Shown: positions 2,449 to 58,010 of the stretch, in pieces
Layout of the letters: the number at the start of each line of letters is the position of its first letter
Numbering within the stretch: position 1 is the stretch's first letter
From: Oscillospiraceae bacterium
Lineage (GTDB): Bacteria > Bacillota > Clostridia > Oscillospirales > UBA929
DNA: 64,000 nt
Reading direction: 5' to 3'
Assembly: GCA_009780275.1 (NCBI GenBank)
Contig: WRAI01000002.1
Coordinates: forward strand, 1 to 64,000
Translations under genes and position numbers: made by a program
The notes under the pieces: model-generated
Told to the model about the DNA's origin: nothing
Databases searched by the model: none
The model's input: only the letters and a program-made list of their open reading frames with translations

Positions 2449-3216
2449 CTACTGCTCGTTGTCATCGCCTTGATAGTCTTGATGATTATACACTCTGCTA
2501 CTCACATTGCCTTCTTCAAGCCGTTGTTCCCAGTCGGGAGTATTATGTTGCCAGTTTTCCCAATGCTCCTCAAAAGCTTCTTCCCCAAACTCGCTGATAA
2601 TCGCTTCAGCAGATAAACCACTATTATCGTGCACAATTTCGAATGGGTCATTCAACTCAAGTAATGATTGCGTTGCATTGACTATACCAACAAAATCGCT
2701 ATATCCATCTAGTTCAATTCTTAGGTCGAGTACAGCAAACAAATAGGTTTCACCCATCTCTAACGGATAGAGTCCCACCTCAATGGGAATGCGGTAAACG
2801 CCATCCCAATAGTGTGCGCCTGCTTCTTGTATAAGGGCCAATTGCTCCTCTTCTCGATAACCTTTGATGCCTCCGTCAACAGTGACACGCATAACGTCTC
2901 TCTCCGCACCTTTGTAGGCGGTAAGAACAGTGACATAGTAGGTTCTGCCCAGCGACAAACGCTCGGGATTGCACTCAGGTGTAGGTGCTCTACCTGTTTC
3001 AGTGCTTATTACATTAAAAGACATATCGGTTACCGTGCCAACGAAAACATGATCGACGCGTGTAACTAGATCTTCTACCGTGCTGAAATAGTAATCTTCT
3101 CCGTGTATATATGTGAATTCTACTTCGGGAGGGTCTTGCGGAGATGAACAAGCCATTAACGCCAGCATGAGTGTGAGACATAATAGTATGGATATTTTTT
3201 TCATAATTTTATTCAT
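2449..3216 (-). CDS. Putative lipoprotein, unknown function
   Basis: A 255-residue secreted lipoprotein. The chosen start (MNKIMKK) has GAGG six bases upstream, and a hydrophobic signal ends in a lipobox with the acylated cysteine at residue 23 (LMAC). The mature part is acidic, with no recognised catalytic motif. A longer frame starts at 3300 but lacks a signal at its N-terminus. The start codon overlaps the stop of the lectin-like remnant to its right. It is convergent with the serine recombinase. Confidence 0.8.
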   Translation of the reverse strand: MNKIMKKISILLCLTLMLALMACSSPQDPPEVEFTYIHGEDYYFSTVEDLVTRVDHVFVGTVTDMSFNVISTETGRAPTPECNPERLSLGRTYYVTVLTAYKGAERDVMRVTVDGGIKGYREEEQLALIQEAGAHYWDGVYRIPIEVGLYPLEMGETYLFAVLDLRIELDGYSDFVGIVNATQSLLELNDPFEIVHDNSGLSAEAIISEFGEEAFEEHWENWQHNTPDWEQRLEEGNVSSRVYNHQDYQGDDNEQ

Positions 3217-3779
3217 TTCTAGCCTCGAATTGATGAGGTAATGACGCATCAGCACTTCCTGTTCTTGTCGCAATACTGCCACCCATATCGCGCCCGCCAT
3301 CTCTTCTGTTCCAAGCTAAAATACCATCCCGAACAGCCGTCTCCCAGCCTCCCAAATTGGGGCGCAAGAATACAGAAAATGTTGGTGAGATCGCTCTCCA
3401 CGGATATGGGCGATTGGATTGATGATGTAGAAAGCTCGCCACATTTCGAACATACCATCTCTGACGCGGTGTATTTGGCCCACGCATAACGAGACTTGCA
3501 GCAGCACCGGTTGTAGATGCCCCGGTAAGCGCGGCTGTCCAGCCATTTAAGCCTGCTTGTCTGCTGATAATACGATAGGCATTGCCATCTCGTTGAAACC
3601 GCCATAATGTCCGATCAACTTGAGCTGCACTCGGAGCAGATATCATACTAAGCGTAGCGTTGCCGGAGGTAAATGCTGCAGTTGCTAAAAACAAATTGCC
3701 TTGTCTAAGTTGATAAAAACGATGCCCACTAGCAGCTAAGGGTTTTGTCGAAATAGCTTTTGACGCATGGTTGTTAAAT
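3209..3779 (-). pseudogene. Remnant of a ricin-lectin / matrixin-like secreted protein
   Basis: An open frame of about 190 codons follows an in-frame TAA just beyond 3779 and has no ATG or GTG, only a TTG at 3694. The first part resembles a ricin-type beta-trefoil repeat (RFYQLRQGN, TLWRFQRDGN, QRWYVRN). The second part (WETAVRDGILAWN) resembles the opening of matrixin-like metalloproteases, but the frame stops before any HExxH site. Both ends therefore look missing. The domain names rest on pattern recognition only. Confidence 0.5.
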
Positions 3780-49785: not shown

Positions 49786-49992
49786 TTGCCTTTGCAAACA
49801 AAAATATCTTCCACTACAAAAAATACAGCCATTATGGCTGGTGGCAATATCGGTGGCGTAGCGATGTCCGGAATAGCAGCATTCACTATGACAGGCGGCA
49901 CAATCAGCAACAACACAGCAGAAATCAATGGCAACGGCGTGTTTGTGCCATCAACGAATTATCGGCAAGCAAAAACCCCACCAAACCGTTGA
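49786..49992 (+). pseudogene. Fragment of a beta-helix adhesin-like repeat
   Basis: A 68-codon frame includes MTGGTISNNTAEINGNGVFV, which is the repeat style of right-handed beta-helix surface proteins (GGTIS.N.A...G.GV). A single repeat remains, without signal, anchor or ribosome binding site, and its end runs into the terminator beside the tRNA fragment. It is best seen as debris next to an integration hot spot. Confidence 0.4.
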
Positions 49993-50018
49993 AAATGCAA
50001 CAGTTAGGCGGGGTTTAC
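49971..50018 (-). terminator. Terminator downstream of the tRNA-Gly 3' end
   Basis: AAACCCCACC (49973-49982) pairs with GGCGGGGTTT (50007-50016), with one mismatch; on the minus strand a TTTTT run follows. It would have ended transcription of the original tRNA gene. Confidence 0.7.
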
Positions 50019-50022
50019 GTTT

Positions 50023-50072
50023 TGGAGCGGGTGATGGGGATCGAACCCACGCGGCCAGCTTGGAAGGCTGAG
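50023..50072 (-). other. Displaced 3' half of tRNA-Gly(UCC): attachment site of the element
   Basis: On the minus strand this reads as the 3' part of a glycine tRNA: anticodon arm CAGCC-TTCCAAG-CTGG (anticodon TCC), T-arm GTGGG-TTCGATC-CCCAT, acceptor CACCCGC and the encoded TCCA end. The 5' acceptor strand and D-arm are missing; element DNA begins at about 50073, next to the integrase gene. This is the displaced fragment left by integration into the tRNA 3' end. The intact tRNA should lie at the far end of the element, beyond 64 kb. Confidence 0.82.
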
Positions 50073-50105: not shown

Positions 50106-51230
50106 TTACGAGGATTTCAAGACATTATTGTCCTCTGTTTTGTCTGCTGATTGGTGGGCATTTATTTTATTTGCTGCGGCTTCTATCACATACTCGCTGG
50201 TGTCTGTATAGATGTTAGCCGTCACCTTGACATCGGAATGTCCCATCAAATACTTAGCGACGTTGAGCGGCACTCCGGCATCTTGTAAGTCAGTACCATA
50301 TGTATGGCGCAAACAATACGGAACGAGGTCATCATCAACAACACTTATAATAATCTTATTCCGATATACAGTTGCGCCCATCGCTATATTTAACTCACGC
50401 TTGAAATTAGTCCAAAGACAACGCCCGCTAGAACCTGTATGTCTTTTTTTAGTAGTGGGTTGTGTAAAAATGGGTTGAAATGGACTACTACGCACGACTT
50501 TGAAATCATCAAGCAACTTTGATGGGATAGGAATAGAGCGAATGCCGGCCACACTTTTGGGCTCTTTTATTTCGTTTGAGCCTGACTCCTTAGCACGGCT
50601 GATATTGATACGAGCCTTGTCAAAATCAATATCACGCCAATCTAGTGCAAAAGTTTCACCAGGGCGTAGTCCGCAGTATAACATAGTTTTAATCCAAAGT
50701 CCGGCCCTATGAGTTTCGCAAAGGGCAAGAATATACTTGCGCTCGTGCGGGGTTATGCTCCTGTACGAGCCTTTTGTCGTTTTTGGCATAGTTAAAGCCT
50801 CGGCAGGGTCATAAATTATTATACGACTGATACGCGCTTGCTTAAACATAGCTTTTAACAAATTACGAACCTTAGAAGTATCATCAAAACTATATCCAGC
50901 ACGCTTGTTTAATACTTGCTGCAAGTGCATATCGGTAACATCTTTGAGCCGAAATGTTCCTATGGCGGGAAGTATGTGATTTTTGAATTTAGATAAATAG
51001 TCTTTATATACCTTATCCGTCACATTTCCTTTTTTGTATGTTTCTAGCCATTCCATCGCCCAACGATTAACTGTCATGTGCTTGCTAATGCCAATGTCAC
51101 CATTTTCGAGCGCACGGATTTTATGCAATTTTTTTTCAATGGCCTCTTCAAGTGATTTGCCGCGTGTACGATATTTTTTTCCATTGTGAGTAAAATTCAC
51201 AATATGATAATCGTATTTTTTCTCTTGCAC
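50106..51230 (-). CDS. int: Tyrosine recombinase (integrase of the conjugative element)
   Basis: A 374-residue phage/ICE-type integrase: N-terminal Arm-binding region, a SAM-like core-binding domain (about 50-160) and a catalytic domain with the first Arg in LYCGLRPGE, YCLRHTYGT (here Tyr replaces the usual His of HxxR), LMGHSDVKVT and the nucleophile in ANIYTD. It starts with GTG behind GGGAGG. The stop is 34 bp from the tRNA fragment, the usual position next to the att site. Confidence 0.95.
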   Translation of the reverse strand: MQEKKYDYHIVNFTHNGKKYRTRGKSLEEAIEKKLHKIRALENGDIGISKHMTVNRWAMEWLETYKKGNVTDKVYKDYLSKFKNHILPAIGTFRLKDVTDMHLQQVLNKRAGYSFDDTSKVRNLLKAMFKQARISRIIIYDPAEALTMPKTTKGSYRSITPHERKYILALCETHRAGLWIKTMLYCGLRPGETFALDWRDIDFDKARINISRAKESGSNEIKEPKSVAGIRSIPIPSKLLDDFKVVRSSPFQPIFTQPTTKKRHTGSSGRCLWTNFKRELNIAMGATVYRNKIIISVVDDDLVPYCLRHTYGTDLQDAGVPLNVAKYLMGHSDVKVTANIYTDTSEYVIEAAANKINAHQSADKTEDNNVLKSS

Positions 51231-51274: not shown

Positions 51275-51880
51275 CTATCCTTTTGCCTTTCCAATTATAC
51301 GTCCACAAGTGAAGAAAGTATCATATTCTCCGATTGTAATAGGCTCGTATTCATCGTTAAGCGATATAAGTCTATTGCCTTGCAGCATTTTGAGATAACC
51401 CTCACCATTTAAGAAGAACACCCCAAACTGCCCACTTTCCACTTGTACACAAGTTTTCACAAAAACAATGTCGTCGTTAAAATACATCGGCTCCATACTA
51501 TCACCGCGAACTTTCAACGCAAAGTCTGCGTTTTTTGGTGCATCCTCAAAATCGTAATGCTCATAATCATTTCCTTCCGCAAGCCATTGCCCGTCACCGG
51601 CTGAAACAGGAACATTATATAACGGTAGCTTTGATACTATTTTTTCAAATTTAGTCTTTTCATGCGTTGTCAAAACGGCATCAGCTTCGCCCATAAGTAA
51701 ATAGTCAATCGTTGTATTCAATTCAGCCGCAAGCAAAACGAGTGTTTCGTGAGATGGTCGCGTGCCTGTGCGCTCATATTTATTGTACAAATCTCTACCA
51801 ACACCTATACGTCTTGCCAATTCAGCTTGTGTGAGTCCGCGTTCTTTGCGTTTGGCTTTCAATCTTTCACTAAACATCAT
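51275..51880 (-). CDS. LexA-like repressor with XRE HTH and S24 peptidase domain (repressor 1)
   Basis: A 201-residue CI/LexA-type repressor. The HTH (LTQAELARRIGVGRDLYNKY) is followed by a linker with the cleavable Ala-Gly pair (VPVSAGDGQ, about 94-95) and an S24 domain with catalytic Ser about 128 (RGDSMEP) and Lys about 164 (GYLKML). The damage response should trigger self-cleavage and release the element. Three consecutive ATGs make the exact start uncertain. It follows repressor 2 by 33 bp. Confidence 0.92.
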   Translation of the reverse strand: MMFSERLKAKRKERGLTQAELARRIGVGRDLYNKYERTGTRPSHETLVLLAAELNTTIDYLLMGEADAVLTTHEKTKFEKIVSKLPLYNVPVSAGDGQWLAEGNDYEHYDFEDAPKNADFALKVRGDSMEPMYFNDDIVFVKTCVQVESGQFGVFFLNGEGYLKMLQGNRLISLNDEYEPITIGEYDTFFTCGRIIGKAKG

Positions 51881-51913
51881 CATCACCGCCTCTTACGCTA
51901 AGCCTATCGCAAC

Positions 51914-52516
51914 TTATTGCTCTCTTTTACCAAGCACTCTACCACAAATGAAAAAAGTATCATACTCTCCGATTGTAATAGGTTCATACTTACGGTTAAG
52001 AGACACAAGCCTATTTCCTTGCAACATTTTAAGATAACCTTCCCCATTTAAGAAGAACGCCCCAATTTGTCCACTTTCCACTTGTACACAAGTTTTCACA
52101 AAAACAATGTCGTCGTTAAAATACATCGGCTCCATACTATCACCGCGAACTTTCAACGCAAAGTCCGTATCTTTTGGCGCACCTGCAAAGTCAACGTACT
52201 CATATTCGTTTCCCTCTGCCAGCCATTGTCCATCGCCGGCTGAAACAGGGATGTTGTATAACGGTAGCTTCGATATTATTTTTTCATATTTAGTCTTTTC
52301 TTTCGGCAAAGTGGGAGTATCTGAACGACAAAGTAAATAATCAGTGGTAACATTAAAGAAATTAGTTAATGTTATAATCGTGTCCGCTGTAAGGGGGACA
52401 TCCTCGGATTCATATTTTGAAACAACCGAGCGATTGATATTCAAAATTTTTGCTAAATCTTCTTGCGTCATCTCTTTTTCTTTTCTTAACTGCTGTATCC
52501 TGTTCACGTTTTGCAC
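51914..52516 (-). CDS. LexA-like repressor with XRE HTH and S24 peptidase domain (repressor 2)
   Basis: A 200-residue paralogue of the downstream repressor. From residue about 73 onward it is almost identical to it (cleavage pair A93-G94, Ser127, Lys163), including about 85 bp of identical DNA. The HTH half (MTQEDLAKILNINRSVVSKY) is clearly different, so the two should bind different operators but react to the same signal. It faces the divergent regulator at 52688 across an operator-rich gap. Confidence 0.93.
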   Translation of the reverse strand: MQNVNRIQQLRKEKEMTQEDLAKILNINRSVVSKYESEDVPLTADTIITLTNFFNVTTDYLLCRSDTPTLPKEKTKYEKIISKLPLYNIPVSAGDGQWLAEGNEYEYVDFAGAPKDTDFALKVRGDSMEPMYFNDDIVFVKTCVQVESGQIGAFFLNGEGYLKMLQGNRLVSLNRKYEPITIGEYDTFFICGRVLGKREQ

Positions 52517-52541: not shown

Positions 52542-52558
52542 TGTTCCTGTTGGGAACA
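52542..52558. promoter_or_regulatory. Operator O1 (TGTTCC-N5-GGAACA)
   Basis: A perfect 17-bp dyad lying between the -35-like TTGTGT and -10-like TATTAT of the leftward repressor 2 promoter, so repressor 2 probably controls itself. Confidence 0.7.
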
Positions 52559-52566
52559 CAACGAAT

Positions 52567-52583
52567 TGTTCAATATAGGAACA
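52567..52583. promoter_or_regulatory. Operator O2 (TGTTC-N7-GAACA)
   Basis: The same half-sites and the same 17-bp span as O1, centred 25 bp away. Together with O1 and O3 it forms a phage-like operator set. Confidence 0.65.
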
Positions 52584-52621: not shown

Positions 52622-52650
52622 TTGACACGAACATTTTTATGTGCTAGAAT
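52622..52650 (+). promoter_or_regulatory. Rightward promoter of the divergent XRE gene
   Basis: Consensus TTGACA (52622-52627), a 17-bp spacer and TAGAAT (52645-52650) with an extended TGC. A GAACA half-site lies in the spacer and O3 begins at the last base of the -10 box. Confidence 0.8.
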
Positions 52651-52666
52651 GTGCACATCGTGAACA
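52650..52666. promoter_or_regulatory. Operator O3 (TGTGC-N7-GAACA)
   Basis: A 17-bp site with the same layout as O1 and O2 and one mismatch in the left arm. It covers the start point of the rightward promoter, so binding should block it. Confidence 0.55.
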
Positions 52667-52687: not shown

Positions 52688-52948
52688 ATGAATATCGCAG
52701 ACGCAAGAAAAGCTGCTGGTTTTTCAACACAGGAACAACTCGCCAATTACATCAAGGTTTCGAGGTCAACAATAGCTAAATTAGAGGCAGGGATATGTGT
52801 TCCTAGGTGGAAAACATTAAAATTGATAGCCAACGCATTAAATTGTTCAGTTGACGATTTACTATCTGATACGGCAAATCAAGAAGATGAGATTAAGAGC
52901 AAAGTCGCCAACGAAATAGAAAAAGGTGTGAACTTCACCAATGAATAA
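52688..52948 (+). CDS. Small XRE regulator, divergent from repressor 2 (Cro-like position)
   Basis: An 86-residue protein that is almost only an XRE HTH (FSTQEQLANYIKVSRSTIAKL, LIANALNCSVDDLLSD) with a short charged tail. It has no S24 domain. GGAGGTG lies 12 bases before the ATG, a long spacing; a TAG just upstream excludes a longer frame. Position and size suit a Cro-like antagonist of the repressors or an activator of transfer. Confidence 0.85.
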   Translation: MNIADARKAAGFSTQEQLANYIKVSRSTIAKLEAGICVPRWKTLKLIANALNCSVDDLLSDTANQEDEIKSKVANEIEKGVNFTNE

Positions 52949-57161: not shown

Positions 57162-57401
57162 ATGAGCGAATTATCACCAACACAAGAATTATCACTAATG
57201 GTTTATATGTTGTCCGCGCTAATAGGGTTTACCTTTTTCTTATGGGATTATGCGACTTATTACGAAAAGTTTAATATTCTTAGGGGCATCAAAATTAGCT
57301 TTACAGTATTATTTTCTACATTCGCCCTCATTAACCTGTTGATTTTCTCCGGTATATTCCCTGACTTTTGGCTCTACATCTTCCCAGAGCTTAGGCCTTA
57401 G
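57162..57401 (+). CDS. Small membrane protein in the transfer operon
   Basis: A 79-residue protein with two predicted membrane helices, GGAGAAAG upstream and an 11-bp gap to the VirB6-like gene. Its last 93 bp overlap the 3' end of the opposite-strand gene at 57309. No family is recognised. Confidence 0.7.
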   Translation: MSELSPTQELSLMVYMLSALIGFTFFLWDYATYYEKFNILRGIKISFTVLFSTFALINLLIFSGIFPDFWLYIFPELRP

Positions 57402-57977
57402 AAGCTTGAAATCTTCCAAAGCCCGAACAAAAGTAACTAACCCCATTATAAAAGCTACCGTTGCCGTTACACTTAATAAAATTGAATTAAATGTCGGTGC
57501 TGTTATTCCTATACGCCATGATGTAATGACAAAAGCGACAAACGCCAGCAACAGAAACCCTATTACCCACAGAACAGCCCATTGCAACTTTGACGGTTCG
57601 GCCGGATAGCCCAAACTTCTTCTTATTTGATTAAATTCCATCCTAATACGATTGGCTAAATGCTGTTTTCTTATATAAGAAGATTCCTTTTTAAGATACT
57701 TTCTCAGCCTTATAATGATGTTTTGCGAAAACAGCATATTAAAATCTAAGTCGCTTGAAAGCCTGTTACTAAAATCCCTCAAATATTGACGCGCTCTATC
57801 CCTATCAATTTTTTGGTGCAAATTGTCTTCAACCACGTTGTAGTAAAGTTCTTTATAAACTTCAAATTGTTTTTCTAACACGCTTAGGTTTTTCTTCCCC
57901 TCAATCAACTTCAACAGCAAGGCCAACATAAAAGGAAACAAAACAGCGGTTATAAACGGCATCCAAAGATTATCCAT
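57309..57977 (-). CDS. Membrane-anchored coiled-coil protein, reversed cargo gene inside the transfer operon
   Basis: A 222-residue protein: one N-terminal membrane helix (about 6-24), a long charged helical middle (about 30-130) and two C-terminal helices (about 134-190). No known domain is recognised. It reads against the transfer genes, has its own consensus promoter (58011-58039) and AAGGAAGG upstream, and its 3' end overlaps the 57162 gene. Possible roles are entry exclusion, host interaction or defence; all are guesses from context. Confidence 0.75.
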   Translation of the reverse strand: MDNLWMPFITAVLFPFMLALLLKLIEGKKNLSVLEKQFEVYKELYYNVVEDNLHQKIDRDRARQYLRDFSNRLSSDLDFNMLFSQNIIIRLRKYLKKESSYIRKQHLANRIRMEFNQIRRSLGYPAEPSKLQWAVLWVIGFLLLAFVAFVITSWRIGITAPTFNSILLSVTATVAFIMGLVTFVRALEDFKLLRPKLWEDVEPKVREYTGENQQVNEGECRK

Positions 57978-58010
57978 AAGCAAACCTTCCTTTTAAGGCA
58001 AAATCTTTTA

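Follow-up and report, generated by a model that had tools for sequence, protein, structure and literature searches.

Two repressor genes in the switch region of an ICE

Two adjacent genes on one strand of the window (the whole 64,000-nucleotide stretch of DNA that was analyzed), here called repressor A and repressor B (Table 1), encode proteins with the domains of a LexA/CI-type repressor, an N-terminal HTH (Pfam HTH_3, 5.7e-15 for A and 2.8e-13 for B) and a C-terminal Peptidase_S24 (1e-18 for A and 4.7e-19 for B). The Ala-Gly cleavage site (Ala96-Gly97 in the numbering of A) and the catalytic Ser130 and Lys166, which an earlier note on this DNA had correctly read as kept in both proteins, are present in A, B and their best S24 relative, C, and are invariant across an alignment of 26 sequences. 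The AF2 model of A has a pLDDT of 87.6, and its best Foldseek matches are LexA, indicating a LexA-like fold. From the conserved cleavage site, the Ser/Lys pair and this fold, it may fairly be inferred that, after DNA damage, RecA stimulates A and B to cleave and so inactivate themselves, which would release the transfer genes. Because both proteins carry an S24 domain, they do not constitute an ImmR/ImmA pair of the ICEBs1 type, and no metalloprotease domain was found among the neighboring ORFs that were scanned.

The pair sits in a 36.6-kb ICE at a tRNA-Gly gene. The 111-bp repeat of attL at the far end of the element (C2:86449-86559) overlaps the 3' part of tRNA-Gly(TCC) (C2:86512-86585). 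In addition to the tyrosine integrase, the ICE codes for a coupling protein (T4SS-DNA_transf, 7.3e-70) and a TraG-type ATPase (TraG P-loop, 6.7e-18), which are of the VirD4/VirB4 type, and for a MobA/MobL relaxase (MobA_MobL, 1.3e-70). It also carries a RepA_N protein, a topoisomerase, an NlpC/P60 protein, a SpaA-type surface protein of 1409 aa with a thioester domain and SpaA repeats (L081:1828-6057, which is C2:65828-70057) and a sortase (L081:19092-19868, which is C2:83092-83868). Within the transfer-gene block, a 224-aa ORF lies on the opposite strand (window 57309-57983, minus strand). An integrase that is 54% identical to that of the window (L075:1495-3657, genome G010) is preceded by a HicA/HicB-like pair and a fragment of S24, and its flank resembles the tRNA-derived att site of the window.

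The genes of B, A and the integrase share a strand, separated by 27 and 44 bp, and are probably one operon, divergent from the transfer genes, which begin on the opposite strand; judged by gene order, the arrangement is that of an ICE switch. In domain order, Ala-Gly site, Ser/Lys residues and fold, and in lying across from a Cro-like gene and next to int, A and B are like the CI/LexA-type repressors of phages and ICEs, of which SetR of SXT (HTH_3 plus Peptidase S24) is an autocleavable ICE example, but they differ in being two in tandem, with related S24 domains and unrelated HTH domains. In phage records, such proteins occur nearly always once per record (887 matches in 874 records), extra copies being rare.

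Table 1. Positions in the window of the genes, domains and sites discussed in the text
Feature	Coordinates	Strand	Description
attL	49960..50070	.	111-bp direct repeat (98%) of contig C2:86449-86559
Tyrosine integrase	50106..51230	-	44 bp downstream of A, same strand
Repressor A	51275..51886	-	203 aa; HTH_3 ~5-66, linker, S24 ~88-199
95-bp tract in A	51432..51526	-	identical to 52071-52165; includes catalytic Ser region
HTH domain of A	51689..51874	-	relatives mainly other S24 or other long HTH proteins
Repressor B	51914..52516	-	200 aa; different HTH_3, related S24 domain
95-bp tract in B	52071..52165	-	identical to 51432-51526 in A
HTH domain of B	52310..52513	-	nearest relative L186, from another genome, with HTH but no S24
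Operator O1 (predicted)	52542..52558	.	TGTTCCTGTTGGGAACA, exact TGTTC-N7-GAACA
Operator O2 (predicted)	52567..52583	.	TGTTCAATATAGGAACA, exact TGTTC-N7-GAACA
Rightward promoter-like site	52622..52650	+	TTGACA-17-TAGAAT, 11/12 matches; consensus match alone
Second palindrome	52640..52657	.	TGTGC-N8-GCACA; covers -10 box of rightward promoter; candidate A site
Operator-like O3	52650..52666	.	TGTGCACATCGTGAACA, 1 mismatch; beside -10 of rightward promoter
Divergent HTH protein	52688..52948	+	86 aa; Cro-like by position

Uneven divergence of A and B

The identity of A and B is 31% in the HTH half (20 of 64 residues, columns 1-66; 34% in a larger alignment) versus 83% in the S24 half (100 of 120 residues; 86% in the larger alignment), so that the two genes do combine differing HTH halves with similar S24 halves, as the earlier note had described them. 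Similarity climbs within the linker, ahead of Ala96-Gly97, from approximately codon 75 of A (EKTK). The S24 halves had been called almost identical, with about 85 bp of identical DNA; the identical tract exists and is slightly longer, at 95 bp (with a start-to-start spacing of 639 between A and B), and the description fits the residues but not the DNA outside the tract, where only 38 of 67 degenerate conserved codons of the S24 half are the same (57%, compared to a random expectation of 40%, or ~27). Inside the tract, the same codon is used at 29 of 29 positions that encode the same amino acid. None of 20,000 codon shuffles within the S24 half reached an identical tract of 95 bp (95th percentile 41, maximum 88), and the run of 31 identical silent codons has a permutation p of 5e-5. 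By the NG86 method, dN and dS are both zero inside the tract; in the S24 half outside it, dN is 0.115 and dS is ~1.27 (about 1.3), for a dN/dS of ~0.09 that averages both lineages and much of which may predate the tandem; the HTH half is saturated.

These codon counts and rates indicate that the divergence of the two S24 halves is old and took place under purifying selection, with one recently homogenized patch of 95 bp. The suggestion of gene conversion in the earlier note is upheld to the extent of a recent conversion-like event confined to this patch. An assembly artefact was rejected as the source of the tandem, because the unique sequence between the two 95-bp copies permits only one linear order.

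Probable replacement of the HTH half

Relatives were sought in genome_contigs, viral_contigs, phages and plasmids, where none was close to the pair in both domains; genomes of the same bacterial family gave no match at 1e-25, and the tandem pair is known from one genome. The single S24-close outgroup found, C (L039), comes from a different genome of the same order, where it is the only repressor of its locus, with a small gene and then an integrase behind it. C is 66-67% identical to both A and B in the S24 half and 31-37% identical to both in the HTH half; A and B are closest to each other in the S24 half, but in the HTH half they are no closer to each other than either is to C. The S24 tree places A, B and C in one clade (SH-aLRT 99). 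In the HTH tree, which was built on 62 columns and has many unsupported forks, B groups with L186 (97/92), C groups with the viral protein of L096 (99/92), and A groups with neither. C and L096 are 55% identical in the HTH half and 37% identical in the S24 half. The nearest solved structure to the HTH domain of A is P22 C2, and the nearest to that of B is the ICEBs1 regulator 7t8i; the relatives of HTH-B other than L186 are mostly HTH-only regulators of 70-120 aa.

A common S24 lineage has probably been joined to HTH domains of different origin, with the junction in the linker at approximately residue 75 of A. The domain swapping proposed in the earlier note, to be checked by looking for exchanged HTH halves at the same breakpoint in related elements, is borne out by this comparison, in which relatives replace the HTH half in the same linker region; instead of even divergence along the length of the two genes, which the earlier note had set against its proposal, the HTH and S24 halves have different relationships. 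Simple duplication in tandem, after which the HTH halves diverged fast under selection for new operators and without domain replacement, is an unlikely explanation. It would account for two adjacent genes on the same strand that align end to end, and a constraint that makes A and B sisters in the HTH tree, at a cost of 56 log units, is not formally rejected (p-AU 0.09) because there are only 62 columns; but the HTH domain of B pairs, with support of 97/92, with a protein that lacks S24 and has the matching operator motif at the equivalent position, and the HTH identity between A and B does not exceed that of either with C despite the closer relationship of their S24 halves.

Among the non-viral pairs gathered, exactly three (A/B, A/C and B/C) combine S24 identity of at least 65% with HTH identity below 45%. 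Among pairs from viral contigs whose S24 halves are 90-100% identical, with fully identical pairs counted separately, HTH identity is below 40% in 27 of 34; swapping of HTH halves is thus ordinary among phage-type repressors, which A, B and C resemble in this. The unusual part is the retention of two swapped versions in one operon: between related temperate phages, where the S24 half is likewise kept and the HTH half differs, the versions are alternative alleles in separate phages, whereas here both products of module exchange reside in one element.

Operators, control of the switch and the role of A

The 36.6-kb ICE contains two exact copies of TGTTC-N7-GAACA, O1 and O2, both between B and the divergent gene; with one mismatch allowed, there are three sites near O1 and O2 and one elsewhere in the ICE. 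The locus of the closest HTH-B relative (L186, in which the true start of the gene is probably L186:1501) has exact sites at 1404 and 1463 in a divergent promoter and, like the window, a small HTH gene reading the other way; the loci of HTH-A relatives, 58.5 kb in all, contain no site. By these occurrences the TGTTC-N7-GAACA operators most likely belong to HTH-B, and since they go with this domain, B is strongly suggested to repress the divergent switch. Relatives of HTH-B that are further removed than L186 lack the motif at the corresponding place. The linkage of operator motif to HTH type by way of a relative is a means of assigning operators to repressors from sequence. A short phage-like switch on another contig (L205:6866-7623; genome G072, contig C91), with an HTH-B-type repressor that lacks S24, also combines TGTTC-N7-GAACA operators with a small HTH gene in divergent orientation, and is useful for comparison in assigning operators.

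The element shows a single evident operator family, which a relative ties to HTH-B, and none is tied to A; a palindrome search upstream of HTH-A relatives gave no motif in common with the window. The palindrome at 52640 may serve A, the Cro-like protein or neither. The earlier note envisaged one damage signal acting on two operator sets, which for this element are conjectural, and escape from the immunity of related elements, which would be a plausible reason for such swaps. O3, unlike O1 and O2, consists of a TGTGC half and a GAACA half and may be a hybrid operator. Its likeness to operator-like sites of C and L096 (with TTCACA/TGTGAA halves) was judged too weak and was set aside.

A hybrid site would suit an improbable explanation in which A and B have long been co-resident and repeated conversion keeps their S24 halves alike for joint work. 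Closely related S24 halves would allow A and B to pair as heterodimers, or to form mixed oligomers, whose two DNA-reading heads would read hybrid sites such as O3; one RecA signal would destroy homodimers and heterodimers together, and occasional conversion of the S24 region would keep the partners compatible. The recent conversion-like tract and the partly unsaturated silent sites elsewhere in the S24 half (57% versus 40% at random) are consistent with this, as are the two dissimilar halves of O3; but a single recent tract requires no selection, a dS of ~1.27 over the remaining S24 half implies that homogenization has not been frequent, and the hybrid-site reading depends on one site.

The favored explanation, which is held to be probable, is that A and B are ICE repressors derived from recombination between modules, one S24 lineage having been combined with HTH domains of differing origin, and that B runs the switch while A contributes a second specificity. 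B would control an operon of its own gene, A and int, and A, a repressor of a sibling immunity type, would have come to lie behind B through recombination in the S24 region, adding a second DNA-binding specificity to the element; the tandem may have originated by duplication followed by an HTH swap, or by the joining of two elements. If A works, one ICE can have two immunity specificities that answer to a single damage signal. There is some chance, though not a large one, that A is instead a leftover or captured passenger with no role in the switch of this element, possibly conferring only immunity against elements with A-type operators. Neither a promoter nor an operator belonging to A was found in the element, and its position between B and int in the probable operon of B would fit such a passenger; its ORF is nevertheless intact with all catalytic residues, and the S24 dN/dS of ~0.09 for the pair also points away from a passenger, although this value is averaged over both lineages and may in large part predate the tandem.

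Word searches of the literature turned up no described case of tandem S24 repressors, which, given their limited coverage, is weak evidence. Two repressors in one ICE have a precedent in ICESt1 and ICESt3, which respond to mitomycin C and have a module of arp1 (cI), arp2 (ImmR) and the orfQ protease (PMC3234194), but those repressors differ in class (cI, and ImmR with a metalloprotease), whereas A and B both have S24 domains of common ancestry. A near-tandem pair comparable to A and B is found in Marinitoga camini virus 1 (KP836355), in which UF08_60 and UF08_59 (L078:1469-2125 and 2986-3597) are HTH-S24 proteins encoded on one strand with 35% identity in the HTH half (20 of 57) and 47% in the S24 half (55 of 116); unlike A and B, they are ~0.86 kb apart and far more diverged in S24.
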